A stretch of DNA of 21,423 nucleotides from the IMG/VR virus record IMGVR_UViG_3300042691_017515, positions 1 through 21,423 of that record; one strand, given 5' to 3'. A program made the position numbers and the translations under genes. Each line of letters begins with the position of its first letter. The first letter of the stretch is position 1. The stretch comes from a virus. Shown piece after piece: positions 1,883 to 21,423 of the stretch. A model generated the notes under the pieces. That model had not been told where the DNA came from. It searched no databases and saw nothing but the letters and a program-made list of their open reading frames with translations.

Positions 1883-3304
1883 ATGGCAGTTTTACCAAGT
1901 CCCGGTTATCAGCTCCAACCAAGTGCGGAGCAGGTACCATTATCAACAAACTATATTACCAACTTCAACTTCTTGAATCAGTATCTTCCTGATACTTATG
2001 AGAAGGAGTTCGAGCGTTATGGTAATCGTACAGTAGCATCTTTCCTTCGTATGGTAGGTGCTGAAATGCCTTCTAACTCAGACATGATTAAGTGGGCAGA
2101 ACAAGGTCGTCTTCATACTAAGTATGTAGATTGCGCATCTTCAGGTGTAGCAGGTGATGATACCGCTACTATCACAGTAAGTGATCCTAACGTGAGTGGC
2201 ATTGCTATTCGTGTTGGTCAAACTGTATACATCTCTGATAACGCTACAGGTCTTTCTAATAAGGGTATCGTTACTGCAGTAAACACTACAGCAGGTACTT
2301 TCGATGTTGCTTATTACGAAGCTGCAGGTCAGAGTTTTGCTGATACAGATACTCTTTCAGTTTGGATTTACGGTTCTGAGTTTAAGAAAGGTACCAATGG
2401 AATGATTGGTTCTCTTGAGTCTCAAGACGAAATCTTCGACAACTCTCCAATCATCATCAAGGACAAATACGCTGTAAGCGGTTCTGATATGGCTCAAATT
2501 GGTTGGGTAGAAATTACAACTGAAAACGGTGCTACAGGATACCTTTGGTATCTTAAGAGTGAGCACGAGACTCGTCTTCGTTTCGAGGATTACCTTGAGA
2601 CTGCAATGATCGAGGCTGTTCCTGCTGAGTCAGGATCAGGTGTTGCTACACAAACATCAAATACTCAAGTTGGTAACAAAGGTTCAGAAGGTATCTTCTA
2701 CGTTGTTAACGACCGTGGTAACGTATGGGGTGGTGGTAACCCAACTACTCTTGCTGATTTTGATGCTATCATCTCTCGTCTTGACAAGCAAGGTTCTATC
2801 GAAGAGAACGTAATCTTCGTAAATCGTGCCTTCAGCTTTGACATTGACGATATGCTTGCTGCTCAAAACAGCTACGGAGCAAATGGTACATCTTATGGTC
2901 TTTTCGACAACGATAAGGATATGGCGTTGAATCTTGGTTTCACAGGTTTCCGTAGAGGTTATGACTTCTACAAGTCTGATTGGAAATACTTGAACGACCC
3001 AACCATGCGTGGTGGATTGCCAACAGGTGCTTCTGCTTCAGGTACTGTAACAGGTCTTTTGGTTCCTGCAGGTTCTACAACCGTGTACGACCAAATCCTT
3101 GGCAAAAATGCTAAGCGTCCTTTCTTGCATGTACGTTATCGTGCATCTGAGACTGAAGACCGCCGTTACAAGACTTGGATTACAGGTTCTGCCGGAGGTG
3201 CTCAAACAAGCGATCTTGATGCAATGGAGGTTAACTTCCTATCTGAGCGTTGCGTTTGTACTCTAGGTGCTAACAACTTCGTATTGTTCCGTTACGGTTC
3301 TTAA
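1883..3304 (+). CDS. Major capsid protein
   Basis: A 473-residue protein placed right after the scaffold. The N-terminal segment (STNYITNFNFLNQYLPDTYEK, then RYGNRTVASFLRMVGAE) and the overall length resemble crAss-like major capsid proteins, which have the HK97 fold and form the icosahedral shell. Residues about 84-164 look like an inserted small beta-barrel (VGQTVYIS...GIVTAVN...FDVAYY), probably in the E-loop or surface region. Codon choice is sharply different from all neighbours: 18 of 20 Arg codons are CGT, with one CGC and one AGA, and Asn/Phe/Lys favour AAC/TTC/AAG, the mark of a very highly expressed gene. The leader is a run of A and T (AAAAATTAAAAAAA) directly before ATGGCA. The gene is closed by a hairpin terminator, which fits a separate abundant transcript. 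High confidence from order, length and codon bias; exact family unverified. Confidence 0.88.
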   Translation: MAVLPSPGYQLQPSAEQVPLSTNYITNFNFLNQYLPDTYEKEFERYGNRTVASFLRMVGAEMPSNSDMIKWAEQGRLHTKYVDCASSGVAGDDTATITVSDPNVSGIAIRVGQTVYISDNATGLSNKGIVTAVNTTAGTFDVAYYEAAGQSFADTDTLSVWIYGSEFKKGTNGMIGSLESQDEIFDNSPIIIKDKYAVSGSDMAQIGWVEITTENGATGYLWYLKSEHETRLRFEDYLETAMIEAVPAESGSGVATQTSNTQVGNKGSEGIFYVVNDRGNVWGGGNPTTLADFDAIISRLDKQGSIEENVIFVNRAFSFDIDDMLAAQNSYGANGTSYGLFDNDKDMALNLGFTGFRRGYDFYKSDWKYLNDPTMRGGLPTGASASGTVTGLLVPAGSTTVYDQILGKNAKRPFLHVRYRASETEDRRYKTWITGSAGGAQTSDLDAMEVNFLSERCVCTLGANNFVLFRYGS

Positions 3305-4198: not shown

Positions 4199-4942
4199 AT
4201 GATAAACTCAGTAAGAAATACCGTATTATCTGTTCTAAACAAGAACAATTATGGGTATATTTCTCCATCTGATTTTAACCTGTATGCAAAGCAGGCTCAG
4301 ATGGAACTATTTGAAGAAACATTTTCTTTATATAATAAGACTATAAATATGGAGAATGCCCGTATGTCGGGTACTTCTTATGCTGATTTTAAAAAAATTC
4401 TTGAAGAGGCTATAGAAATATTTTCTACAACATCTTCATTAACTCAAGTCTCAGCAGCAACAAATAGATATTATCTTCCATCAGTTACTACTACAGGATA
4501 TGATTACTTTATGATTAATAAAGTACTTTGTTATGATGCTTCAGGACCAACAAGAGTTTTAAAGGGAGAAGCCGAAAAGGTAAATCACAGTAAAATAACA
4601 ATGCTAAATACTTCTCTTCTTACAGCTCCAACAGAAACGTACCCTGCGTATGTTCAAGAAGGTAGTATAATGACGGTTTATCCTGATACCATTAATTTGC
4701 CAAATGAAGTTGATGCACAATACTTTAGATATCCAAAAGACCCTAAGTGGACATACATAACTCTCGCAAGTGGCGAGCCTGTATTTGATCAATCACAACC
4801 TGATTATCAAGACTTTGAGATTCCTATAGAAGATGAATATAAATTAGTCTTAAAGATACTACAGTATGCAGGTATCTCTATTCGTGAGATAACTCCTGTT
4901 CAGTTTGGCGCAGCACAAGAACAACAACAGCAACAACAATAA
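4199..4942 (+). CDS. Tail ring/adaptor-like structural protein A
   Basis: A 247-residue protein opening the tail block. Residues 1-75 are helical (SVRNTVLSVLNKNNYGYISP, KQAQMELFEETFSLYN), a start that I associate with a conserved Bacteroidota phage structural protein found next to the portal-binding rings. The middle (80-200) is beta-rich, with 'RYYLP' and 'YPAYVQEGSIMTVYPDT', and the C-terminal part has a helix (EDEYKLVLKILQYAGISI) before a Gln tail. The beta core between helices resembles head-tail connector/adaptor proteins that stack under the portal. It sits first in a run of three tail genes with gaps of 6 and 1 bases, so they are translated together. It ends in six Gln codons and two successive TAA stops. 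Ring/adaptor is inferred from position and fold pattern; no enzymatic feature is visible. Confidence 0.6.
   Translation: MINSVRNTVLSVLNKNNYGYISPSDFNLYAKQAQMELFEETFSLYNKTINMENARMSGTSYADFKKILEEAIEIFSTTSSLTQVSAATNRYYLPSVTTTGYDYFMINKVLCYDASGPTRVLKGEAEKVNHSKITMLNTSLLTAPTETYPAYVQEGSIMTVYPDTINLPNEVDAQYFRYPKDPKWTYITLASGEPVFDQSQPDYQDFEIPIEDEYKLVLKILQYAGISIREITPVQFGAAQEQQQQQQ
4922..4939 (+). repeat. Poly-glutamine codon run at the end of a tail gene
   Basis: Six consecutive Gln codons (CAA CAA CAG CAA CAA CAA) form the last residues of the preceding protein, followed by two in-frame TAA stops. A trinucleotide run like this can change length by replication slippage without breaking the frame. Confidence 0.85.
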
Positions 4943-4948
4943 TAAGAT

Positions 4949-5872
4949 ATGGCATATATATCACAATATCAGTATTATGAAAATGGGGGTAATCAACCCG
5001 AAAATAAAAATTGGGGTTCTTATCAATACGTAAGTTTATATGATATAGTCAATAATTTTTTATTGATGTATTCAGGCAACCATTCACTTGTTAACAATGA
5101 AGAGAGATATAAGATATTATTTCACGCAAAAAGGGCAGTCCAAGAACTCAACTATGATGCCTTTAAAGAGCTTAAAGTCTTGGAGCTTACCGTTGATGAC
5201 ACACTCAGGTACGTACTTCCATCGGACTACGTCAATTGGGTGCGAGTTAACTTATACAAAGATGGGTACTTGAGACCACTTACGGAAAACATTCAGGTTA
5301 TATCCTCATTGGCTTACCTTCAAGACCAAACGGGTAAGATATTATTTGACCAAGATGGTAATGCATTATCTCCTGAGTTCTCAGAGATTGATGTACAAAG
5401 ATTAGCAGGAACAAAAAAGAGTATTTATCTTAACCCGCAAAGTAAATATAATGGGCAAGAAGGTTGGAATGTTAATGGGGCTTGGTATTTTGATTATAGT
5501 CTTGGAGAGAGATATGGTCTCAATACTGAAACAGCTAACTTTAATCCAACATTTAATATAGATAAAAAACAGGGTGTTATTTACTTTAACTCTGATATGT
5601 ATAATCAATCTGTTATTCTTGAATATATTTCAGATGGTATGGAGAATGGTGATGATTCTCTTGTTTCTGTAAATAAATTGTTTGAGAAATACATATATGC
5701 TTATATTCAATACGAGATACTAAACTCTAAACTTGGTGTTCAAGAGTATGTTGTGAATAGGGCTAGGAAAGAAAAAAGTGCGTTATTAAGAAATGCAAAA
5801 ATTAGAATCAGTAACATTCATCCGGGTAGACTTCTTATGAATCTACGTGGTATGGACAAGTGGTTGAAATAA
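4949..5872 (+). CDS. Tail ring/tubular-like structural protein B
   Basis: A 307-residue protein 6 bases after protein A and 1 base before the large stabilization gene. Residues 28-75 (SLYDIVNNFLLMY, then RYKILFHAKRAVQELNYDAF) and LPSDYVNWVRVNLY (about 92-105) are landmarks of podovirus tail-adaptor proteins of the kind called tail tubular A-like in crAss-like annotations. The centre is beta-rich and variable. The C-terminal helix pair (KYIYAYIQYEILNSKLG, RARKEKSALLRNAKIRI) is strongly conserved in type and basic, and it ends RLLMNLRGMDKWLK. Such proteins form the second ring between portal and tail nozzle. No catalytic motif is visible. The start ATGGCA follows a tandem stop and AAGAT. Family assignment is from memory and position. 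Confidence 0.66.
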   Translation: MAYISQYQYYENGGNQPENKNWGSYQYVSLYDIVNNFLLMYSGNHSLVNNEERYKILFHAKRAVQELNYDAFKELKVLELTVDDTLRYVLPSDYVNWVRVNLYKDGYLRPLTENIQVISSLAYLQDQTGKILFDQDGNALSPEFSEIDVQRLAGTKKSIYLNPQSKYNGQEGWNVNGAWYFDYSLGERYGLNTETANFNPTFNIDKKQGVIYFNSDMYNQSVILEYISDGMENGDDSLVSVNKLFEKYIYAYIQYEILNSKLGVQEYVVNRARKEKSALLRNAKIRISNIHPGRLLMNLRGMDKWLK

Positions 5873-5873
5873 T

Positions 5874-8800
5874 ATGGCAAATATTACAAGGAACTTTACA
5901 GCAGGTAGAATGAATAAGGTTGTTGATGAACGCCTTATTCCTGATGGAGAATATATTGACGCACTCAATATTCGCATGGGTTCTACTGAGAACTCCGAGA
6001 TTGGTGTCATTGAAAATACAAAAGGAAACTTACCACTTACATCAATAAAATATATTGATGGGACACCATTAAGTTCTTCGGCTAAATGTATAGGAGCTAT
6101 TGATGATAGCGCAAACGAAACATTATATTGGTTTATACATGACTCAAATTTTACTGTAGGAGCTACGGGAAAGCTTGATATGATTGTGTCTTATAATACA
6201 AATACCAATATACTTACGTATCACGTAATTAGCGTAGATGATGGAGATGGTGTAAATACAACATTAAACTTTAATCCAAAATATCTTATAACAGGAGTTG
6301 ATATTGTTGAGAATTTAATATTTTTTACAGATCACTACAATCCTCCAAGATTTATAAATAGGAAAAGGAACTATGCAAATCCGCTACTTAATATAGACCA
6401 ATTTACAGCAGAGTCAATACTTGTTATTAAGAAGCCGCCAATTGCAGCTCCAACTGTACAACCAATAGTTACAGGAAGTCAAGATGATTTTTTAAAGACT
6501 AGGTATATATGTTTTGCTTATAGATACAGATACCAAGATGGTGAGTATACAGCAACATCTCAATTCTCTGATCCTGTTTTTATACCAAAACCATTTGAGT
6601 TTAGTATTAACAGTTTCTTGAACGAGGGTATGGTTAACCTTGCAAATGCTGCGAGTGTAACATATAATTCAGGAGGCCCTCTTGTTGTTGGTATTGACTT
6701 GCTTTTTAAAGAAGCTCAAAGTAATATTATAAAGGTTATTGAAAAGCTTGATAAAGCTGAGCTTGGACTTGTTGATAATACTGACTACACTTATGTATTT
6801 ACAAATAGTAAAATTTTTACAGTACTACCTGAGTCTGAGTTATTAAGACTATATGATAATGTACCACTTATAGCAAAAGCTCAAACCATTATGGGTAACA
6901 GGCTTATGTATGGTAATTATACTGAAGGATATGATTTGATTGATAAGTTTGGTCAACCTGTAAAATTTGAATACACAGCCAACTTGATTACTGAGCCTGT
7001 AGATAGTACTCAGCTTGTTGACACTACAGCAAGTGGTAATTATACAATTAATGGCTCTCAATCAATAGCAAACTCAGTACTATATTTTGATTTAACAGGT
7101 GCTGAATTAATTGCAGGATCTTCAATTAGTGCAGATATAAGGCTTAATCACGCTGATTTTACAGGAGATACTCCTGATCCAACAGAACAATCTCAAAATA
7201 TAGAGATTACATTTTCATTTATATTGAACAGAGATTATACATCTGTGTATGACTTAGCAACTAGTGTTGAATTTCAAGAAGCAGTAGGTACTGTAGCGAA
7301 CATTAATCCTGTATATCCATTTACTCCGGGAGGTACAACACTTACTGATCAATTAAATGACGCATTGCCATTAAACCTAGATGCATTAACAAAATATTCT
7401 AGTGGAATTAGTGCGGGTGGTCAACCTATAGCTATAATTACTACGCCTGCAAGTCAACTTATAGGTTTACAATTCATAGCAATGAGGTATGTTAATAATA
7501 CTGCCTCACCTACATTTAATGTATATGAATATTACTCTGTGACATTCGCAGAAGTAACGTATCAAAAGATAAATTCACCTCGCAGTTTACACAGCAATCG
7601 AGGATATGAGATTGGTATTGTTTATATGGATGAATATAATAGAGCATCAACTGCTTTGGTTAGTCCCAATAATACAGTATCTATTCCTTGTGCTAATTCA
7701 AGTACAAAAAATTCTATACAGGTTACAATACCATCAACTCAAAGAGCGCCTTATTGGGCTAAGAGATATAAGTTTGTCATCAAGCCTGATGAAGAAAATT
7801 ATGACGTTATTTATAGCAGCATATTCTTTAATGACCCTAACTCAAATGATGTGTACTTTTTACTTGAGGGAGAAAATGCAAGAAAAGTTGAACAGGGCGA
7901 TAGGCTTATTGTAAAGGCAGATACAGGAGGTCCAACAACATCTTGTGTATATGCAACTGTTCTTGAAAAGGAAGCAAAGGCTGAAGGGTTTATAGTAATA
8001 CCAAGTGAGCTTGATCCTACTGAAAATATAAATGTACCATCGGGCGTTTATATGAAAATGAACCCAAGCAACTTCGCTGTTGTAAAAGATGAGCTTTCTA
8101 TAATAGCTCCGGGTGTTATACAGGTTGATGAAAATACTCCAAATGATTTTCCTATTCTTTCTTATCCAATGAATAGATATGATACTGCTACTTCTGCTTG
8201 GGTTGATTATGATGTTCCTGCAGGAAGTAGAATAAGAATATCTTTTAAATTTCAAAGACTTGGTGTAGGAGGTGGTAGTAGTCTTTGTGAAAAAAGAATA
8301 TATACGTTAGAAAAAAACTTAGTATCTTCTGCAAGCTATGCCAATATGAAAGATTGGTGGGACGGGGAGAATGTTCAAAATGTTATTACGGAAGGAATAC
8401 AGGATGTTGGAGCAGGTGGTGGCGACATAGATAATGTATATGTATCAACTTTAGCTTCTACAAGCAATGATATACCAACAGCTATTGATACAAACTATTA
8501 TAGATTCTACAGAAATATTGCAACAAATCAACTTTCACTTTTATTAAGCGGAACAGTTAGATGTGGAGGTGTATTATCTAGAGAAAAAAGAAGGTCTACT
8601 ATTATTGCAAATGTAGAAGTGTTTAGGGCTGAAACAACTATTATATTTGAAACACAACCACAAGATGCTTTACCTGATGTATTCTTTGAAAATAATTTAT
8701 CTTTTTCTATTGACGCTAATGGAAACCATAGTGGCAATGTTCAAAATCAAAATATATCGGGTGGTACGTCAGCTATTGTAGATACAGAATTTTTTAACTG

Positions 8801-10292
8801 CTTCTGTTTTGGTAACGGAGCTGAGAGTTATAAGATACTTGATTCTATAGTAGGTAAGACATTTAACCTTGGCAACAGGGTAACATCTGTTTCAGCGCAA
8901 GACTATAAAGAAGCTAACAGATTTGCTGATATTACTTATAGTGGTATATACAATACTGAGTCAAACGTAAATAAGCTTAATGAATTTAACTTAGGACTAC
9001 TTAACTATAAATATCTTGAGCAGTCTTTTGGCCCAATATATAAACTAGATGGGAGAGAGACAGACGTACTAACATTGCAAGAGGATAAGATTTCGTATGT
9101 ATTGGCAGGAAAGAATTTGCTTTCTGATGCAGCAGCAGGTGGTGCAATTACATCTGTTCCTGAAGTATTAGGCACTCAGATAGCAAGGGTAGAGAAATAT
9201 GGTATTAGTTTTAATCCTGAGAGTTATGTTCAGTGGGGATACGACAGATACTTTACTGATGTTAAAAGAGGTGCTGTAATTCAAATAAGAGGTAACTCAT
9301 ATAGCAGTGATCAATTAAGAGTAGTATCAGAAAGTGGTATGAGGACTTGGTTTAGAGATACATTTATAGAAGGTTTGACTACTCAAAAGTTAGGTGGATT
9401 TGATCCATATCTCAATGAATATGTTTTAAGCACTAATGATACTCAGTTACCTGCAATAATTGAATGTGTAAACTGTGGTATATCTCAAACTGCTTCAATA
9501 GCTTCAGGTGATACCGTTGAGTATTGCGTAACAGTTGGTAACACTATTGGTGATGTCAATGTCAATTATGAAGTTCCCGCTGCTTCAACAGGTGAGTTTA
9601 TTGTTAATGCCACATATAATAGCGTTACCGTTAGCTCAGGCATTGTTGATAGCTCAGGGTTTATTACTGTAAATAAAGACTTAATTACAATTGACTTTGT
9701 TGACATACAGATTGTTGCTGTAGATGACATAACAATAAATGTAACTACAGACTGCCCATTATTTGAAGAGCTTACTATAATAGAGGTTTGTGTAACAAAT
9801 AGTGTTGATGCGGGTAAGTTTATACATAACGAATATAGGTATGCAAATGGAGCATTTATATCCCCTCTTCAATCTGCGTTGGTAACATTTGCTTCGGGTA
9901 CAGCCAATCCCCTTGTATCAAGATATAATGTAACAACAGGAGCTGTAGGTACAGGTGGATTCCCTCCTGCGGGTAGCGCAATGAGGCTTGCTTCAAATAA
10001 GATAAACTTTGATGATTTTGATTTTGATATAACTCAAGACAATTTTAGATACCATAGAAGCAATACTTTATATAATAATACACCTATACAGATAGCAAAC
10101 CTACTTTCGGTAGCAACAGAAGCTACTCCTGTAGTAGGCTCAACACCATATTTTTATGCTGATTTCACCGTACCTTCGGTGGGTCAATATTTGTATTTGA
10201 TATGGGATTATAGAAACGCATTACCTATTGAGTTGTGTTATTCTAATGTTGATGAGATTGATGCGTGTTGTGGATGTGAAGTACCTAATTGA
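5874..10292 (+). CDS. Large tail stabilization ('muzzle'-type) protein
   Basis: At 1472 residues this is the largest complete protein here. The N-terminus (TRNFTAGRMNKVVDERLIPDG, then EYIDALNIRMGS and GVIENTKGN) is the hallmark I recall for the crAss-like 'stabilization protein', which structural work on a crAss-like phage places in the tail muzzle. Residues about 40-340 show repeated beta blades (ETLYWFI, NLIFFTDHYNPPRFINRKR), consistent with a propeller or P22 gp10-like hub. Around 570-600 lies another typical block (SNRGYEIGIVYMDEYNRAS). From about residue 1190 the protein becomes a chain of beta domains with scattered Cys (ECVNC, YCV, DCP, EVCV) and ends CYSNVDEIDACCGCEVPN. No membrane segment or enzyme motif is seen. 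It follows the ring genes by one base. The Cys-bearing C-terminus and the next gene's Cys-rich repeats may belong to one surface assembly (inference). Confidence 0.8.
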   Translation: MANITRNFTAGRMNKVVDERLIPDGEYIDALNIRMGSTENSEIGVIENTKGNLPLTSIKYIDGTPLSSSAKCIGAIDDSANETLYWFIHDSNFTVGATGKLDMIVSYNTNTNILTYHVISVDDGDGVNTTLNFNPKYLITGVDIVENLIFFTDHYNPPRFINRKRNYANPLLNIDQFTAESILVIKKPPIAAPTVQPIVTGSQDDFLKTRYICFAYRYRYQDGEYTATSQFSDPVFIPKPFEFSINSFLNEGMVNLANAASVTYNSGGPLVVGIDLLFKEAQSNIIKVIEKLDKAELGLVDNTDYTYVFTNSKIFTVLPESELLRLYDNVPLIAKAQTIMGNRLMYGNYTEGYDLIDKFGQPVKFEYTANLITEPVDSTQLVDTTASGNYTINGSQSIANSVLYFDLTGAELIAGSSISADIRLNHADFTGDTPDPTEQSQNIEITFSFILNRDYTSVYDLATSVEFQEAVGTVANINPVYPFTPGGTTLTDQLNDALPLNLDALTKYSSGISAGGQPIAIITTPASQLIGLQFIAMRYVNNTASPTFNVYEYYSVTFAEVTYQKINSPRSLHSNRGYEIGIVYMDEYNRASTALVSPNNTVSIPCANSSTKNSIQVTIPSTQRAPYWAKRYKFVIKPDEENYDVIYSSIFFNDPNSNDVYFLLEGENARKVEQGDRLIVKADTGGPTTSCVYATVLEKEAKAEGFIVIPSELDPTENINVPSGVYMKMNPSNFAVVKDELSIIAPGVIQVDENTPNDFPILSYPMNRYDTATSAWVDYDVPAGSRIRISFKFQRLGVGGGSSLCEKRIYTLEKNLVSSASYANMKDWWDGENVQNVITEGIQDVGAGGGDIDNVYVSTLASTSNDIPTAIDTNYYRFYRNIATNQLSLLLSGTVRCGGVLSREKRRSTIIANVEVFRAETTIIFETQPQDALPDVFFENNLSFSIDANGNHSGNVQNQNISGGTSAIVDTEFFNCFCFGNGAESYKILDSIVGKTFNLGNRVTSVSAQDYKEANRFADITYSGIYNTESNVNKLNEFNLGLLNYKYLEQSFGPIYKLDGRETDVLTLQEDKISYVLAGKNLLSDAAAGGAITSVPEVLGTQIARVEKYGISFNPESYVQWGYDRYFTDVKRGAVIQIRGNSYSSDQLRVVSESGMRTWFRDTFIEGLTTQKLGGFDPYLNEYVLSTNDTQLPAIIECVNCGISQTASIASGDTVEYCVTVGNTIGDVNVNYEVPAASTGEFIVNATYNSVTVSSGIVDSSGFITVNKDLITIDFVDIQIVAVDDITINVTTDCPLFEELTIIEVCVTNSVDAGKFIHNEYRYANGAFISPLQSALVTFASGTANPLVSRYNVTTGAVGTGGFPPAGSAMRLASNKINFDDFDFDITQDNFRYHRSNTLYNNTPIQIANLLSVATEATPVVGSTPYFYADFTVPSVGQYLYLIWDYRNALPIELCYSNVDEIDACCGCEVPN

Positions 10293-10307: not shown

Positions 10308-11678
10308 ATGGCTATTAGTGCAACATTTTATTTAGATGCTCCATCACTCGGTTCAGCCACGGTGATATATTCTGATATAAATTTAACCACAATTGCTCCT
10401 GATGGATTCTATTCTGATGGTGTAATAGTAAGGCAGCAGGTATCGGGTGTTCTTTTGCCTCAAGTTATATGTGAAGAGTGTCAGCCTCCTGTTACATACA
10501 ATTGCGTTGAAGGAACATGTATTGATCCCGGTGATGGAACAGGCACTTATGCTACACTAGCTGCATGTCAGGCAGTTTGTGGCGTACCACCACCTTGTGA
10601 ATGTCATGATGGTATAATTAATGATAACAATGCATTTAGCTACTATGATTGTGATGGTGTACTATTTGCAGCCGGTGCAGAACTTGGTTCAGAGATATGT
10701 TATAATATAAATGCTCCACATAGTTCTAATATTACAGATGTAGGACCTGCAGTATATTGCGTTTGTGGTGAACCTCCTCCTGTTTCATATAATTGTATTG
10801 AAGGTACTTGTATTGATCCGGGTAACGGGTCAGGAACTTATGCCACTTTAGCAGCTTGTCAAGCTGCTTGCGGTACACCACCACCTGTATCTTATGACTG
10901 TATTGAAGGTAGTTGTATAGATCCCGGTGATGGATCGGGAACGTATGCAACCCTAGAAGAATGTGAAGCTGCTTGCGGTACACCTCCTCCTGTCTCATAC
11001 AATTGCGTTGAAGGTATTTGCGTAAATCCGGGCGATGGTTCAGGTACCTATGCTACACTAGCTGCATGCCAAGCGGCTTGCGGTACACCACCACCTGTAT
11101 CTTATAACTGTGTTGATTATGTTTGTGTTGATCCCGGTGACGGTTCAGGTACGTATGCAACATTAGCAGCTTGTCAGTCTGCCTGCGTAGCTCCTGTATC
11201 ATATATTTGTGCTGATGGAAGTTGTGAAGACCCCGGTGATGGCTCAGGACCATACCCTACATTAGCTGCGTGTTTGGCAGCATGTGGTGAGCCCCCTCCT
11301 GTATCATATAATTGCGTTGAAGGCACTTGCGTAGACCCCGGAGACGGTTCGGGTACATACGCTACATTGGCTGCGTGCGAAGCAGCTTGTGGCGTACCTC
11401 CGGTATCATACAATTGTGTTGAAGGAACATGCATTGACCCCGGTGATGGTACAGGAACCTATGGAACATTAGCTGCTTGTGAAGCTGCTTGTGAACCACC
11501 TTGTAATTGTCATGATGGTGTAATAAACGATAATAACTCATTTAGTTATTATGATTGCAGTGGTGAACTAGTTGCGGGTGGAGCAGAACTTGGAAGTGAA
11601 ATATGTTTTGATGTTACTAAAGCAACAAGTGGAAATATAACTGACCTTGGACCATCAGCAATTTGTTCTTGTTCTTAA
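10308..11678 (+). CDS. Cysteine-rich tandem-repeat tail/surface protein
   Basis: A 456-residue modular protein. Residues 1-60 form a beta domain (ATFYLDAPSLGSATVIYSD, then APDGFYSDGVIVRQQVSG) ending CEEC, a module I recall at the head of Bacteroidota phage surface proteins. Next come eight copies of a 33-35 residue repeat with spacing C-x4-C-x15-C-x3-C and core DPGDGSGTYATLAAC; the first copy is separated from the other seven by a 58-residue module starting CECHDG. A second copy of that module (starting CNCHDG) closes the protein. There is no signal peptide, as expected for a virion protein made in the cytoplasm. Cys pairs could form disulfides after release or bind metal; the Asp/Gly-rich loop could bind calcium (inference). 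Location after the tail muzzle suggests a tail appendage or receptor-binding decoration. No enzyme motif was found. Confidence 0.7.
   Translation: MAISATFYLDAPSLGSATVIYSDINLTTIAPDGFYSDGVIVRQQVSGVLLPQVICEECQPPVTYNCVEGTCIDPGDGTGTYATLAACQAVCGVPPPCECHDGIINDNNAFSYYDCDGVLFAAGAELGSEICYNINAPHSSNITDVGPAVYCVCGEPPPVSYNCIEGTCIDPGNGSGTYATLAACQAACGTPPPVSYDCIEGSCIDPGDGSGTYATLEECEAACGTPPPVSYNCVEGICVNPGDGSGTYATLAACQAACGTPPPVSYNCVDYVCVDPGDGSGTYATLAACQSACVAPVSYICADGSCEDPGDGSGPYPTLAACLAACGEPPPVSYNCVEGTCVDPGDGSGTYATLAACEAACGVPPVSYNCVEGTCIDPGDGTGTYGTLAACEAACEPPCNCHDGVINDNNSFSYYDCSGELVAGGAELGSEICFDVTKATSGNITDLGPSAICSCS
10497..11501 (+). repeat. Eight-copy cysteine repeat array (protein-level repeats)
   Basis: Copy 1 covers 10497-10595. 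Copies 2-8 start at 10785, 10890, 10995, 11100, 11199, 11304 and 11406 and end at 11501, giving units of 105, 105, 105, 99, 105, 102 and 96 bases. Amino-acid identity between copies is high, but the codons differ widely (for example Gly-Asp-Gly-Ser-Gly is spelled differently in nearly each copy). Copy 5 is the shortest linker, copy 6 the most divergent (SYICADGSCEDPG). Confidence 0.9.
10596..10769 (+). repeat. CHDG module, copy 1
   Basis: A 58-residue module beginning CECHDGIINDNNAFSYYDC and ending YCVCG. It has conserved landmarks SYYDC, AGAELGSEIC and SNITD-x-GP that recur in copy 2 at 11502-11675. It interrupts the Cys-repeat array between copies 1 and 2. Confidence 0.85.
11502..11675 (+). 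repeat. CHDG module, copy 2
   Basis: A 58-residue module beginning CNCHDGVINDNNSFSYYDC and ending ICSCS at the C-terminus of the protein. It matches copy 1 at 10596-10769 over its full length at the protein level, with many synonymous differences. Confidence 0.85.
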
Positions 11679-11687
11679 AAATAAAAT

Positions 11688-12494
11688 ATGGCAAATTATA
11701 CATTATCATATAGTGAAGGAGTTCAAGGATGGCCATCATTCTATTCCTTTTATCCTGATTGGATGATAGGAATGAATAACTATTTTTATAGTTTTAAAGG
11801 TGGCAATCTTTATAGGCACAATGTAAATAATACTAGGAATAACTTTTATGGTCAACAGTACTCGTCTTCAATTCAAAGTGTATTCAATACATCTCCTCTT
11901 GAGAATAAACTTTTCAAGACATTAAACCTAGAGGGTGATGATACTTGGACGGCTAATATGGATACAGACCTACAATACTCAGGTTTTATTCAAGACACTT
12001 GGTTTGAAAAGAAAGAGCAGGCTTGGTTTGCTTTTGTTAGAAACTTAGGTTCTACGCCTGCCACTGCTGCCGAGTATCCGCTTAGATCTGTGAATGGTAT
12101 AGGTCGTAGTACAACAATTACAGGAACGGGAGCGGCAGTTCAGGTCAATTTTGCAATAGGGGCTAACCCAATAGATATAGGTAGTATTATAAGTATAGGG
12201 GATATATTGTATTACAATCTGCCTCCTACCTTTGCAACGCCTGTTCTATTTGGTGAAGTAACTGATATACAGGTTAACTATCCGACAGGATTAAACAGGC
12301 TAACTGTGGATACCACTATCCCCGGAGCTACTATTCCGGGAATACAGAACCCGTATATAATGTATATTAAAAACTCAGTGGCTGAATCGCATGGGGTGTT
12401 GGGTCATTATTGTGTGTTTACCCTTGAAAATAGTAATACGGATAAGGTTGAGCTATTTGCCGTTGAGTCAGAAATTATGAAAAGTTATCCTTAA
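11688..12494 (+). CDS. Tail-associated structural protein, Bacteroidota phage family
   Basis: A 268-residue protein whose N-terminus (SEGVQGWPSFYSFYPDWMIG, then MNNYFYSFKGGNLYRHN) is a signature I recall from many Bacteroidota phage structural modules, always near tail genes. It is rich in aromatic residues and predicted mostly beta. Residues 133-215 look like an inserted small barrel (ISIGDILYY...FGEVTDIQV...NRLTVDT). The C-terminal strand ends VELFAVESEIMKSYP. There is no membrane segment, signal peptide or catalytic motif. It sits 9 bases after the Cys-repeat protein, and its stop codon overlaps a promoter-like box before the acetyltransferase. It is probably a tail hub, plug or fibre-attachment component. 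The exact role is unknown. Confidence 0.62.
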   Translation: MANYTLSYSEGVQGWPSFYSFYPDWMIGMNNYFYSFKGGNLYRHNVNNTRNNFYGQQYSSSIQSVFNTSPLENKLFKTLNLEGDDTWTANMDTDLQYSGFIQDTWFEKKEQAWFAFVRNLGSTPATAAEYPLRSVNGIGRSTTITGTGAAVQVNFAIGANPIDIGSIISIGDILYYNLPPTFATPVLFGEVTDIQVNYPTGLNRLTVDTTIPGATIPGIQNPYIMYIKNSVAESHGVLGHYCVFTLENSNTDKVELFAVESEIMKSYP

Positions 12495-12504: not shown

Positions 12505-12915
12505 ATGCCATTTAATATACGACCATTGAACGAGAATGATTATGATGGTTTACTTGTGGGGTGGTGGAAAGATTGGGGATGGGAGCCTCCGCAAAAAGAC
12601 TTTCTCCCTGATGATGGCAAAGGTGGTATAATGATACTTGATGAGGATGAGCCTGTGTGTGCGGGGTTTATTTATACCACAAACTCAAAGGTAGCGTGGG
12701 TAGATTGGATAATATCAAATAAAGGGTATAGAAAAAAACCCGAAAGAAGTGAGGCCATCAAGTTGTTGGTCGAGACATTAACAAATATTTGTAAGAATAC
12801 AGGGCATAAATATAGTTATGCTTTAATTAAACACCCAAGCCTAATAGATACCTATAAAGAATTAGGGTATATAAAAGGTGATGGATATACAGGAGAAATG
12901 ATAAAAGTACTATAA
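12505..12915 (+). CDS. GNAT-like N-acetyltransferase family protein
   Basis: A 136-residue protein with the strand-helix order of the GNAT fold: IRPLNENDYDGLL (5-17), strands GGIMILDEDEPVCAGFIY (40-57) and KVAWVDWIISN (62-72), helix ERSEAIKLLVETLTNICKN (80-98), strand YSYALIK and the C-terminal signature SLIDTYKELGYIKGD (112-126), equivalent to GNAT motif B. GNAT enzymes transfer an acetyl group from acetyl-CoA to an amine. The usual acetyl-CoA loop (Q/R-x-x-G-x-G/A) is not clear: the matching site reads GYRKKPERSEA, so activity is uncertain. Trp-rich segment GWWKDWGWEPP (19-29) is where substrate specificity would be set. It is embedded in the structural operon and ends one base before the next gene. 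Small GNAT genes at this place occur in other Bacteroidota phages as far as I recall; the substrate is unknown. Confidence 0.7.
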   Translation: MPFNIRPLNENDYDGLLVGWWKDWGWEPPQKDFLPDDGKGGIMILDEDEPVCAGFIYTTNSKVAWVDWIISNKGYRKKPERSEAIKLLVETLTNICKNTGHKYSYALIKHPSLIDTYKELGYIKGDGYTGEMIKVL

Positions 12916-15702: not shown

Positions 15703-18700
15703 ATGAACGAACAGGCGATACAAGACTCATATAATCTTTTTGTACAGAACGGGTACACAAAGTCGATAGATGAATTTAAGAAATTAATTTCTTCAAATCC
15801 ACAAGCTTTAGATGATTCATATAATCTGTTTGTACAGAATGGATACAATAAACCTATTGAAGATTATAGGTCATTGATGGGTCTATCTCAGGCAGCGCCT
15901 GTAGTAGAAGAACCTGTTAAAAAAAAAGTCGGTCCAATACCCGCAGAAAAAGTACAAAGTTTTACGGAATTTCCTTCGGAAGTTGGTCCATCGGTATCAC
16001 CCGAACCTACTAAGCCCGTTGCTCCAACAGTAAGTCAAGAGCCTACTGAGACCCTTGCTGTGGGGCCGATGGGTATAACAGGTTTGCAAAGAACTAAGGA
16101 TTATGTTCCTGCAAAAGAAGAGGGAAGACAAGGTGATGTATTGAATTTAGTATCATCATTAGATAAAGGATTTTATAAGAATCTTATAGGTAGTCCTGTA
16201 AAAGGATTAGGAACTGCTCTTGAGGGTGTTACAGGTAAAGGATTTGTTAGTGATGCCCTTATTAGATTTGGAGATTATTTTAATAAAACAATTGATGAAC
16301 TAACTCCTCAAGATGAAGAGTTTAGGAACAGCTTAACTGATCAATTTGGTCAAGCATTTGGACAGGTTGCATCATTAATTATTACACAAGGAGCTGCAGG
16401 AGCATTATCAAAAGCTCCAACTGCAGTACAAATAGCAAAAGGAGCATTAGCATCACAGGCTGCACCTAAGGCAGTAGGAGCAGTAGAAGCATTAAAGACA
16501 TTAGGTTCTGAATTAATGAGTCCAACCGCAGTAAGTGCAGGACTATCAATGGGTCAAGGAGAATTTGATAGGGCAAAAGAGGCGGGTGCAACAGATGAGC
16601 AAGCATTTGAAGCGTTTTATAAAAATGCTGCAGTGGGTTCTGTTCTTGAAAAGATACCTGTAATGCAGTTCTTAAAACGATTTGATAAGGCAAGTGCGGG
16701 TGGTGTTGTAAATTATTTAAAAACAAAAGGTGTTGCGGGTGTAACAGGAGGTTTAGAAGAGATGACCACTGAAATTCTTCAAGGAATATATTCAAACCTA
16801 ACAGCTCAAGATATTTATAATGCAAACCAAGATATATTTGAGGGTCTTACCGAAGCAGGTGGTGTTGGATTTGGCGTTGGATTCTTACTTAATGCAATGG
16901 GCGCAAATGCAAAAATACTTAGAAAACAGGGCAAAGATGCTGAAGCAAACATTGTTGAACAGCAAATTAAAGAATTTCAAAATCAAGCAGAGAGGGGAGG
17001 TCCATCTTCTTATAGTATAAGTGGTATATTAATTAAGCCAATCATATCTGAAGGTGTAGTTCAGCAAGAGCCACGTGAAATTGTTAGTGGTATGATAGAT
17101 AATATGACTGCTGCTGATCTTTCAAAAATGAACATAGATATTACAAATGACCCTGAGCTTAAGATTAAGTTACAGGATAAAATTGTAACGTCATCTATTA
17201 AGGAGCAGGTTCGTGAGTCTAATCCTAATCTTAGTGAAGAACAGTTGGATGAGATAACCAATCTTGAAAAAGAATTAAGAAAGTTTGAAGGTAATACAAC
17301 GCAGTCAGGTAAAGATAGGGCAGCTGCCATCCGTACTCAGATTAAAAACATTCAAGAGAATCAACCGACCGAAGAAGTAAATAATTCAGCTAGGATTGCT
17401 GAGTTAGAGGGAGTGTTGTTAAGTGCTGATAAAAACCTTGCAGAGACAGGAACGAGTTCATTGTCTGAAGATGCAAGGCTTGAAATAGAAAAAGAATTAC
17501 AAACCTTAAAATCAGAACAAGATGCCATTCAAAAGCAAGCAGCAGGTGAAGTACCTGTACAGTCAAGAGCCGGAGTTAGCGAAACGTTGGAGGAAGGAAA
17601 ACCCCAAGCAGAACCTGAAGTCACTACCACAGAAGGTATCGAAGAAGTCGTCACCCCGCAAGAAGCGTTAAAGGATGTAGAAAGTACGGCAAAGGCATTA
17701 GAGCAAATTGAAGAAAGTAAAGTTGATGATTTGGAAGGTGATGCTAACGTGCGTATAAATGAAATGATAGGTGATACACTTAATAATATTATAGATGAAA
17801 AATCACTTACAGAAAAAGTAAAAAAAGCTGTTAAAAAATTCTTCTCTATATCTGAGCGTGGTGAGTATATACCATCAAGAGGTGCTGAATATGACATAAA
17901 ATCTTCAGATATTCCAAGGAGTAAAAGATTTGTAAAAGATGTTGGTGCTGCATTATTAACTGATAAGTTTGATGAGTCGAGCTTAGAGTATTCAAACGCA
18001 ATAGAACAATTAAATGATGAAATAGATAATTACTTTCAAGGTTTAGTAGATTCTGAACTAACCGGGAAGGCTCCTGAAACTAATGAAAATATAACACAAT
18101 TATTAAATATAATTTACGATATACAAGATAAATATAAAAATGCTGAGAAAAATATACCATCAAACTTAGCAGAACTATATCATGCTGATAAAAAAGAAAA
18201 TAGAGTAACTGATATTACAAAAGCTGTAGAAAATTTATTAACAGCACAAGAACCTGCGCCTATCCCTCAGGTAGAAGAACTACTTACCTTAGATACCAAG
18301 GATGCTACGGTGCTTGAAAGAGTGCGTGACTTCTTGGATAAGGCTGAGGCTGACTTGGATAAGTTTGGTCGTGAGACAACAGGTATCAATCTTGCTGTGC
18401 CTGTAATCAAAGCTGTAATTAAAACAGTAAAAGCTCTTGTCAATACGGGTATTACATTGCAAGAGGCAATACGTAGAGCAGCAGCAGAGAACAATGTAAG
18501 GGAAGAGGATGTAGTTGAGTCAATAAATTATATTGCCAAGCAGCGTGAGCTTGAAGCCAAGCCACAAGGGGTATCTGAGATGGAGCTTCCGGGATATAAT
18601 AGAATGATTGGAGAGCTTGAAGGTGTTATTGAAAAGTCAAGGCAGCGTGGCACAACAGAAGATGTTGCCATGCAGAATGCTATGGAATATCTACAGGGTT

Positions 18701-21423
18701 CAAAGGTATATGAATCTGCATCAGATACACAACGTGAGGCTATGGTCCGTGATCTACGCAAGATGTTTGGTAAAAGAGAAAAGGCTGCACCAAAACCTGA
18801 AAAGTTATTTGCTGAAACAAAAGATGTTAAAGAGATAACCATGGATGAATACGAGTTGCTAAAGAAGCAGCTAGCTGATGAAGCAAGAGGCGCCAAGAAT
18901 GCAAAGACTGTTTGGACCAAAACAAGTCAAGCGCTTGCAAAGTACTTGGGAAAAATGAAAGACGGTGGTTATGTAACTGCCAACCAAACGGCTTCAATAA
19001 TAAAGAAGTTTAGCAGCGTAAACATGTTTGATAAAAAGTCTATAGGAAAGTTTGTAGACTATATGGCTAAGGTATTTAATAATGCAAGCTATGCTGAGCA
19101 GATTGCTCAAGTAAGAGCAATGCTACCAACTGCAAAGAAAAATGCACAAACCAAGGTTGGTGTATCTCAAACGCTTAGTCCATTACTTAAGACTTTATTC
19201 GCTATAAATCCAACACTTATACCCGACTCTGTATTTGCAGAATATGTTGAAGTGGTATCAATGATGGGAGAAAGAAAGGCTGTGCTTGACCTTGAAGAGT
19301 CAGGAAAGCTTACAGACAAAGTAGATGAAATACTTAATGCAGTTGATGAAGAAGTTTCAAGAAGCGAAGAGCTTGCGGAAATGTTTGATAGCTATGAAGA
19401 TAAAGTGGTTGATGAGGAAGGAAATATAGATTTCAATGAGACCATTAAGAAGATGCTTAAGGAAGATGTTATCACAGAAGAGGATGCTGCGATAATGAAA
19501 AAGTATAGAAAGAATATTCTTCCAATGGTTCAAAAAGAAGCAAAGAGTGAAGAAGAATTGCAAGAAGAAAAAGATATACTTATTGAAGATATTAAAGAAG
19601 CAAGCATAGATTTCGATGGTCTTCCAATGAAGGACGAAAGAAATAAAGCACGTGAACTTCAGAAGCTAATTAAAACAGATGCGGTAAAAGGACTTGACAA
19701 TACACAGCTAAAAAATTTATTGCGTGTAATTGACAATATTAATAATGGTTACTTCCCCCACTTTGCACAGTTGATGGTTGAAAGACTTAATGCAATAAAC
19801 AATTCAAAGGTTCTTGATACTGCTGTGATGAATGCAAAACCATTGCCGTTATCTACAGTCTATTCAAAGTTGAAATCTTTGCTTACAAAGAAAGATAAGT
19901 TTTCTGAACTGATAAGGCGCAATCCACTTTATTATATAGACCAAGTATTTGGAGACTTTAAAACAAAGAATATATTTGATTCTATATTTGAGAAATCCGC
20001 AGAAGCTCAAGCTATGTTTAAAAGTGCAGTAACAAATCTAAATAATAGATTAGATAATGCACAAGAAGCTGTAGCAAAATCATTCAAGAATGATCCGAAC
20101 AAGACATTGATGTCAAAGTTTAAGATGATGACATATATGCTTCAGCTTGAGAATGATTCTAATCCCGGTAACAATCAGGTGAATCCTGCTGCCGATTATC
20201 TGAAGGCTACTATTGAACATATCAACAATGGCAAATCAACTTTTGGGGAAAGAGATGCTAATATGCTTCAGGAGATTCTTGATAAATACACAGATGCTGA
20301 TGGCAATATAGATAATAACAAGCTGTATAAATCATTTAATCCTGCAGAAAAAAATGCCATCAAAACTATTCAAGAAATAAACGAAGAGAATAGGGAGAAG
20401 GCTATATATACTGCTGCAGTAATTCGTGGAGATAAGATTCATCCTCTTAATAACTATATTCATTTGAATGTTCTTCATGAGTATAAACCTGATGAAGCAT
20501 TGTCAGGTGCATCGTTTGTTGATTCTTACAACAATTCACTTAGACCATCAACAAAGGCGAAGTCTCTTATTGCACGTACAGGTAAAGCATCACCATTAAA
20601 TTTTGATGTGTTTGCTTCTGCAAATAGGGGTGCTAAGTTTGTGTTAATGGACTACTATCTTACTGAACCAATAAGGACAGCACGTAAGACCATCAATGAG
20701 ACAAAGAAATTGATGAAGGAACAGAATGCAAGTAAGCAACAAAAGGATATATTTAATGCAATTGATAATGCGTTTGAAGAAGCAACTGACAATCTTCTTA
20801 CTAATAATTTTACTTCATCTTCTTTCATTGAAGATGCTGTTGCATTTGTTTCAAAACAAGGATACCGTGCAGTTCTTGCAAGTGTTCCAAGGTTTATAGG
20901 TGAGCTTATATCTAACGTGGCATTTGCTACCATTGCTGCACCTAAAGATTTTAAAACAGGATGGAAGTATCGTGGTGTTGTAATGTCTCCAAATGCTTCC
21001 AAGATTATGAATAACTTGGCGAGCAAGCAAACAAATAGGTTGTTTCCTAAAGATACATTAAGCGGAAGACTTATTGATACATCAATACTTAATCAAGCAA
21101 GTGGTGTAAAGGGTGGTAGAGCAAAATCTGATGTGGCAAATAAACTTCAGCAGATATATAATCTTTCATTAAAGAAAGCAAAGAACGTAGTAGAGCTACA
21201 AGCTGATGCGTTGATTGCTACTCCGGATAAAATGGTCATGAGACCAATGTGGTTTGGTACATTTGCCAATGCTTTTAAAGAACAGACAGGAAAGGATATA
21301 GACTTTGATAAGGTTGCTGAAGGTAATGAGAGATACATGGCAGAGAATAAAGAAGCACTTGACAAGGCACGGGACTTGGCTGACAAGAAAACAGTATTGG
21401 TTGGTGCTGCAGATAATGCATAT
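15703..21423 (+). CDS. Giant polyvalent/ejected virion protein, N-terminal 1907 residues (3' end outside window)
   Basis: I read frame 1 codon by codon from 15703 to the window end and found no stop, so at least 1907 residues are encoded. Segments: two copies of SYNLFVQNGY motif (7-58); Pro/Glu linker (60-130); an Ala/Gly-rich helical domain with hydrophobic patches (150-410) containing GGLEEMTTEILQ (349-360) and a GxxxG-like stretch AGGVGFGVGFLLNAMG (385-400); Glu/Lys coiled coil (480-700); AT-rich acidic region (700-850); a conserved-looking block DKFGRETTGINLAVP with a following amphipathic helix (877-940); long helices to 1700; and a final block with MRPMWFGTFANAFK (1846-1859). This resembles the multi-domain 'large polyvalent' or ejected proteins of phages, loaded in the head and injected to counter host defence or to start infection. 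No complete enzyme motif was recognised. The missing C-terminus may hold one. Confidence 0.72.
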   Translation, partial: MNEQAIQDSYNLFVQNGYTKSIDEFKKLISSNPQALDDSYNLFVQNGYNKPIEDYRSLMGLSQAAPVVEEPVKKKVGPIPAEKVQSFTEFPSEVGPSVSPEPTKPVAPTVSQEPTETLAVGPMGITGLQRTKDYVPAKEEGRQGDVLNLVSSLDKGFYKNLIGSPVKGLGTALEGVTGKGFVSDALIRFGDYFNKTIDELTPQDEEFRNSLTDQFGQAFGQVASLIITQGAAGALSKAPTAVQIAKGALASQAAPKAVGAVEALKTLGSELMSPTAVSAGLSMGQGEFDRAKEAGATDEQAFEAFYKNAAVGSVLEKIPVMQFLKRFDKASAGGVVNYLKTKGVAGVTGGLEEMTTEILQGIYSNLTAQDIYNANQDIFEGLTEAGGVGFGVGFLLNAMGANAKILRKQGKDAEANIVEQQIKEFQNQAERGGPSSYSISGILIKPIISEGVVQQEPREIVSGMIDNMTAADLSKMNIDITNDPELKIKLQDKIVTSSIKEQVRESNPNLSEEQLDEITNLEKELRKFEGNTTQSGKDRAAAIRTQIKNIQENQPTEEVNNSARIAELEGVLLSADKNLAETGTSSLSEDARLEIEKELQTLKSEQDAIQKQAAGEVPVQSRAGVSETLEEGKPQAEPEVTTTEGIEEVVTPQEALKDVESTAKALEQIEESKVDDLEGDANVRINEMIGDTLNNIIDEKSLTEKVKKAVKKFFSISERGEYIPSRGAEYDIKSSDIPRSKRFVKDVGAALLTDKFDESSLEYSNAIEQLNDEIDNYFQGLVDSELTGKAPETNENITQLLNIIYDIQDKYKNAEKNIPSNLAELYHADKKENRVTDITKAVENLLTAQEPAPIPQVEELLTLDTKDATVLERVRDFLDKAEADLDKFGRETTGINLAVPVIKAVIKTVKALVNTGITLQEAIRRAAAENNVREEDVVESINYIAKQRELEAKPQGVSEMELPGYNRMIGELEGVIEKSRQRGTTEDVAMQNAMEYLQGSKVYESASDTQREAMVRDLRKMFGKREKAAPKPEKLFAETKDVKEITMDEYELLKKQLADEARGAKNAKTVWTKTSQALAKYLGKMKDGGYVTANQTASIIKKFSSVNMFDKKSIGKFVDYMAKVFNNASYAEQIAQVRAMLPTAKKNAQTKVGVSQTLSPLLKTLFAINPTLIPDSVFAEYVEVVSMMGERKAVLDLEESGKLTDKVDEILNAVDEEVSRSEELAEMFDSYEDKVVDEEGNIDFNETIKKMLKEDVITEEDAAIMKKYRKNILPMVQKEAKSEEELQEEKDILIEDIKEASIDFDGLPMKDERNKARELQKLIKTDAVKGLDNTQLKNLLRVIDNINNGYFPHFAQLMVERLNAINNSKVLDTAVMNAKPLPLSTVYSKLKSLLTKKDKFSELIRRNPLYYIDQVFGDFKTKNIFDSIFEKSAEAQAMFKSAVTNLNNRLDNAQEAVAKSFKNDPNKTLMSKFKMMTYMLQLENDSNPGNNQVNPAADYLKATIEHINNGKSTFGERDANMLQEILDKYTDADGNIDNNKLYKSFNPAEKNAIKTIQEINEENREKAIYTAAVIRGDKIHPLNNYIHLNVLHEYKPDEALSGASFVDSYNNSLRPSTKAKSLIARTGKASPLNFDVFASANRGAKFVLMDYYLTEPIRTARKTINETKKLMKEQNASKQQKDIFNAIDNAFEEATDNLLTNNFTSSSFIEDAVAFVSKQGYRAVLASVPRFIGELISNVAFATIAAPKDFKTGWKYRGVVMSPNASKIMNNLASKQTNRLFPKDTLSGRLIDTSILNQASGVKGGRAKSDVANKLQQIYNLSLKKAKNVVELQADALIATPDKMVMRPMWFGTFANAFKEQTGKDIDFDKVAEGNERYMAENKEALDKARDLADKKTVLVGAADNAY
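15721..15876 (+). repeat. Tandem N-terminal motif of the giant protein
   Basis: Residues 7-28 (nt 15721-15786) and 37-58 (nt 15811-15876) are two copies of one motif with a 30-residue period: DSYNLFVQNGY, then T/N-K-S/P-I, acidic residue, aromatic and Leu. Eleven residues are identical in a row, while third codon positions differ (CTT/CTG, AAC/AAT, GGG/GGA). Confidence 0.9.

Follow-up and report, generated by a model that had tools for sequence, protein, structure and literature searches.

A modular cysteine-rich protein encoded in a slot of the muzzle gene of a crAss-like podovirus

Genomic context

The stretch of viral DNA analyzed here, referred to as the window, spans 21,423 nucleotides of IMG/VR record IMGVR_UViG_3300042691_017515 and is the structural module of a crAss-like podovirus. 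Its gene order is of the crAss type, running from the portal end through virion structural proteins and the muzzle to the gene under study, and on to the muzzle C-terminal domain (MUZ_C) and further structural or large proteins. A virion structural protein at 1883-3304 (phrog_13704, E 2e-104), which by gene order is the major capsid protein, is followed by two more at 4199-5872 (phrog_14543 and phrog_13977) that are ring-type by their position 5' of the muzzle. The muzzle itself is encoded in two parts that flank the gene of interest, an N-terminal chain of 1472 residues at 5874-10292 (crAss_MUZ, PF25731, E 1.4e-10; phrog_14478, E 5.5e-225) and a C-terminal chain of 268 residues at 11688-12494 that is a separate gene here (crAss_MUZ_C, PF25729, E 2e-17). 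All of these genes, and the gene between the muzzle parts, are on the plus strand. Further along the window are a small structural-module gene at 12505-12915 (phrog_17252), the equivalent of which in record MW202828 is labelled as an N-terminal acetyltransferase subunit, and a gene at 15703-21423 for a protein of at least 1907 residues (phrog_32588, no function), which is cut short by the end of the record.

The closest named record is MW202828 (Podoviridae sp. ctfjg026, from Manatee Spring), with identities of 52% in the muzzle and 62% in MUZ_C. The cultured relatives have hosts in the genera Cellulophaga, Flavobacterium, Tenacibaculum and Maribacter, and the host of the window phage is therefore likely an aquatic bacterium of the Flavobacteriales.

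Architecture of the slot protein

The gene between the two muzzle genes (10308-11678, plus strand) encodes a protein of 456 residues, here called the slot protein, that is built from a 58-residue N-terminal anchor domain, eight four-cysteine (C4) units and a second cysteine-rich domain that is present twice. A reading made from the sequence alone had reported eight four-cysteine repeats of 33-35 residues, with 32 cysteines in the array and no signal peptide. The translation bears this out: there are exactly eight units of the form C-x4-C-x15-C-x3-C, they hold 32 cysteines, and no signal peptide is apparent. The units begin at residues 64, 161, 196, 231, 266, 299, 334 and 368, corresponding to 10497-10580, 10788-10871, 10893-10976, 10998-11081, 11103-11186, 11202-11285, 11307-11390 and 11409-11492 on the plus strand. 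The array is not continuous, however, since the second cysteine-rich domain splits unit 1 from units 2-8 and the regular spacing of 33-35 residues between units is broken there by a step of 97 residues. This second domain is 57 residues long, contains the motif CxCHDG and follows both unit 1 (residues 98-154, 10599-10769, plus strand) and unit 8, where it forms the C-terminus (residues 400-456, 11505-11675, plus strand); the two copies are homologous to each other, and copy 1 also to sequences in loci L002/L033 and L075.

Each C4 unit starts with an aromatic residue and Asn or Asp (Ile in one), continues through an Asp/Asn-Pro-Gly loop that ends in Gly-x-Tyr, and closes with a short helix. The loop singled out earlier, DPGDGSGTY, does occur but is not universal, with DPGDGTGTY, DPGNGSGTY and NPGDGSGTY found as well. 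The whole protein contains 46 cysteines (10.1%), compared with 0-1.5% cysteine in the products of neighbouring genes, and at 10% cysteine the four-cysteine spacing would be expected by chance about 0.05 times (456 x 0.101^4). It further has 54 acidic residues, one Lys and one Arg. Proteins of this composition evade standard proteomics, and trypsin-based methods would miss the slot protein.

Pairwise comparison of the eight units gives a mean identity of 73.5% for DNA and 76.8% for protein, and the codons differ synonymously in 326 of 602 pairs that encode the same residue. DNA identity below protein identity, together with these synonymous differences, indicates that the array is old and has been kept by selection at the protein level. 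The synonymous divergence between units rules out a recent DNA-level expansion of the array.

The slot in the muzzle gene

The slot gene interrupts the muzzle, or tail-tip, gene just 5' of its C-terminal domain. The earlier assignment to the tail module thus stands, but what had been taken for a generic fibre gene occupies a slot inside the muzzle gene. Mapping of related muzzles places this position within a single chain in phi38:1, elemoF and Gundel, and in phi38:1 only about six residues separate the two muzzle halves. Residue 1185 of the window muzzle is instead followed by 287 extra residues (1186-1472) without counterpart in phi38:1, then by a stop, the slot gene and the remainder of the muzzle as a gene of its own. 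The muzzle of phi13:2 is cut at the same site, with the slot gene absent, and that of Panino is likewise split.

PDB profile searches with muzzle alignments did not reach the phiCrAss001 muzzle protein gp44, so the junction was placed by direct alignment, which is weak in this region and puts the cut near residue 1195 of gp44. The cut thereby falls past the domain thought to contact the host, the crass domain (453-904 and 940-1012). This placement counts against the host-contact reading, for which an exposed position of the slot protein has to be presumed.

An anchored protein is found between the two muzzle genes in 38 deduplicated loci, a sample that was found through the unit and the anchor and gives no frequency of empty slots. 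The slot ORFs in these loci range from 83 to 978 residues, and most muzzle C-terminal chains are 257-285 residues long where complete. Close relatives vary in unit number and in the modules that follow the anchor, and modules other than the C4 unit are also swapped in this slot. The ctfjg026 slot gene, labelled 'putative glycosidase', has the same position and an anchor 46.7% identical to that of the window protein over residues 1-89, whereas it carries no C4 units and its remainder is unrelated to the window slot protein. Loci L009 and L010 have tandem anchor genes just 5' of the slot gene, the first encoding 83-88 residues that are almost a bare anchor.

The anchor domain and a possible joint with the muzzle

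The anchor (10308-10481, plus strand) is a third conserved domain, separate from the C4 unit and the second cysteine-rich domain. It is conserved in 47 distinct relatives, 46 of which share its terminal CxxC, and AlphaFold predicts residues 1-50 with a pLDDT of about 81-95. A search of the PDB with a model of the anchor and the second cysteine-rich domain gave no match. Two internal cysteines, Cys29 and Cys47, are both present in 19 of the relatives and both absent in the other 28, never occurring singly. A Fisher value for this co-occurrence takes no account of how the sequences are related, but mapped on the muzzle tree the pair has changed at least four times, and two of these changes are forced by well-supported (starred) branches.

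On the muzzle side, the N-terminal chain ends in a cysteine cluster, LCYS-x6-DACCGC (10236-10289, muzzle residues 1455-1472). A cluster of the LCYS...CCxC type is present in the muzzle N-terminal chain of every slot-bearing locus examined, with the variant LCYC/VCYC in the L031/L053/L056 group, while the muzzle of phi13:2, which has no slot gene, is without it. In L048 and L034 the LCYS...CCxC segment is doubled at the chain end. The presence of the cluster in slot-bearing loci and the CxxC ending of the anchor make a cysteine joint between the two proteins possible.

Distribution of the C4 unit in phages and hosts

An exact DNA pattern for the C4 unit matched 91 stretches of IMG/VR, and the same pattern matched 69 stretches in GTDB genomes. 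Their record titles place all of them in the Bacteroidota, almost always in the Flavobacteriales. The host proteins that carry the unit, among them a PHB-type esterase and an M43 peptidase, are exported: many have signal-peptide-like N-termini and T9SS-type C-termini. These labels are our own pattern matches, unlike the Por_Secre_tail domain that profiles confirm in L141 (E 1.2e-13) and L147 (E 3.4e-10). Neither Pfam nor NCBIfam gave a Por_Secre_tail match for L112 or L153, and the phage slot protein is also without a sorting domain. A conserved C-terminal tail of about 40 residues, VVDILGRE...LFYIYDDGTVEKK, is shared by L112, L122, L126, L127, L153, L160, L163 and other host proteins, and may be a short variant of the T9SS signal.

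In phages, the unit is found not only on slot proteins. It sits directly on the muzzle N-terminal chain in loci L011-L015, L017 and many others, and loci L037, L100 and L108 encode giant single-chain muzzles (2781-3468 residues as read in the loci) that carry units C-terminal to MUZ_C. Of all the evidence, these fusions to muzzle chains speak most strongly for a place of the units on the tail tip. Phage units also occur on proteins of other kinds, one of them with SprB repeats; this protein, in L063 (1570-4887, minus strand), combines the repeats with a Hoc-like match and a C4 unit.

Searches with the whole slot protein gave no match above cut-off in Pfam, PHROGs or NCBIfam. Nine relatives gave nothing useful in Pfam or PHROGs, and the absence of any recognizable binding domain with a known function among these results counts against a role in host contact. 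PDB sequence searches with the slot protein and with a profile of the unit returned no credible match, and tblastn against annotated phage records found no C4 unit, the best match (0.1) being judged chance. The unit accordingly has no relative in Pfam, PHROGs, NCBIfam or the PDB. The sequence-only reading was right to call the mini-domain previously undefined in that it lacks a name in the family databases, but the unit is not specific to phages, being common in secreted proteins of Flavobacteriales.

Predicted fold and conservation of the unit

An AlphaFold model of three consecutive units, built with 38 sequences, has a pLDDT of 87.8 and a pTM of 0.44. Each unit is confidently predicted as two strands and a helix, with cysteines 1 and 2 in the hairpin and cysteines 3 and 4 in the helix. 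The second cysteine-rich domain is not confidently folded (pLDDT below 50). Essentially every one of 303 distinct units retains the four cysteines, and deviations are changes in spacing; none of these units was found to miss one cysteine pair, and apparent losses looked like length variants. Judged from this conservation and from the paired behaviour of the anchor cysteines, the C4 units are most likely stabilized by disulfides, as the sequence-only reading had allowed. A C1-C4 and C2-C3 connectivity would be our guess, drawn from the Kunitz domain as an analogue.

Discussion

The slot protein is best explained as a modular, disulfide-locked tail-tip adhesin or stalk on the muzzle of a crAss-like podovirus that infects aquatic Flavobacteriales, a reading to which we assign a probability of a little under 0.6. 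The 58-residue anchor would dock the protein to the muzzle, possibly through the terminal CCxC of the muzzle chain and the CxxC of the anchor, so that the slot protein would form part of the virion and display its eight C4 units and two second cysteine-rich domains outward. The string would be made reduced in the cytoplasm and would oxidize during or after assembly and release, yielding a stiff, protease-resistant arm that probably touches the surface of the host or the host's polysaccharide. Its stiffness is presumed, as the pTM of the three-unit model does not fix the geometry from unit to unit. Modules are swapped in the slot, which would let related phages alter the surface of the tail tip. 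The host-contact role proposed from the sequence alone is plausible for a protein in this tail-tip slot.

A more far-reaching proposal, which we offer tentatively and hold to be doubtful, is that crAss-like phages of Flavobacteriales have converted a muzzle loop into an exchange slot that holds a separate gene, and display there the disulfide mini-domains that their hosts carry on secreted proteins, clipped to the muzzle by intermolecular disulfides between the muzzle CCxC and the anchor CxxC.

The units could instead serve on the muzzle as a passive spacer or protective coat, with the same place and the same disulfide-locked fold but no ligand. Such a role would fit the variation in unit number, from 1 to 11 in phage ORFs, the finding that host units often separate the sorting tail from a catalytic or other domain (L112, L147), and the restriction of strong conservation to the scaffold positions Cys, Gly, Pro and Tyr. 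We consider it unlikely nonetheless, since the swapping of other modules in the slot suggests selection on surface identity and not on length alone.

Stabilization of the C4 units by bound zinc in place of disulfides is less probable still. Two cysteines in a hairpin and two in a helix resemble the layout of a zinc finger, C2H2-like with Cys for His, and the cytoplasm in which the protein is synthesized is reducing. The unit is, however, found in exported host proteins, and the nearest solved structures in Foldseek are Kunitz domains and not zinc fingers. All four cysteines are moreover retained while the C1-C2 spacing ranges from x4 to about x9 and that of C3-C4 from x3 to about x7, and the two anchor cysteines are acquired and lost jointly. 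Retention despite changed spacing and paired gain and loss favour disulfides over zinc without proving them.

The likeness to Kunitz domains raises the further reading of a protease inhibitor or protective factor, either free in solution or borne on the virion, in the form of an array of half-Kunitz domains. The modelled unit resembles half of a Kunitz/BPTI domain, with a predicted hairpin, a C-terminal helix and a C-x3-C pair (TdPI, rmsd about 1.7 Å over about 33 columns). Kunitz inhibitors are the top PDB matches in Foldseek, at a best E of 2.5 that is not significant, and one host protein with units (L141) has a marginal Kazal-type match. Yet the unit is half the size, with two cysteine pairs where Kunitz domains have six cysteines in three disulfides. 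It lacks the N-terminal half that carries the reactive loop and one of these pairs, and has no sequence match to Pfam PF00014, so that we regard an inhibitor as very improbable. Calcium binding through the Asp/Gly loop, raised by the sequence-only reading, is hardly credible: DPGDGSG is like a short Asp/Gly loop and its first Asp is 89% conserved, but loop position 13, the second Asp, is Asp in only 42% of units, with Thr in 41% and Asn in 14%, a variation that does not support a fixed calcium site.

The adhesin or stalk that we favour has partial parallels in known systems. The muzzle genes flanking the slot are homologues of gp44 of phiCrAss001 (crAss_MUZ and crAss_MUZ_C), a phage in whose tail insertions and disulfides are known: muzzle insertions there can change surface properties, and the tail barrel and fibre hubs are stabilized by disulfides (Bayfield et al., 2023, PMC10172136). 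While gp44 is one chain of 1371 residues, the chain in the window is interrupted, and the break holds a modular gene of its own. Tentaclins likewise combine a conserved anchor with variable strings of small domains and have phage-like copies in bacterial genomes (PMC10743442), but they are DGR-linked and carry C-type lectin and Ig domains; Pfam searches of the window protein (E up to 1) and of nine relatives (E up to 0.1) detected neither kind of domain. SprB-type surface proteins of Flavobacteria are repeat-rich and come from the same bacterial group, and the L063 protein unites their repeats with a C4 unit, although the repeat is a different one and shares no sequence with the window protein.

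These findings define a mini-domain, unnamed but widespread, that Flavobacteriales share with their phages. They also reveal a gene-sized site of exchange in the crAss-type muzzle, which is otherwise conserved. In the crAss-like phages, a very abundant and mostly uncultured group, this site is a concrete place in which to seek the determinants of host range.
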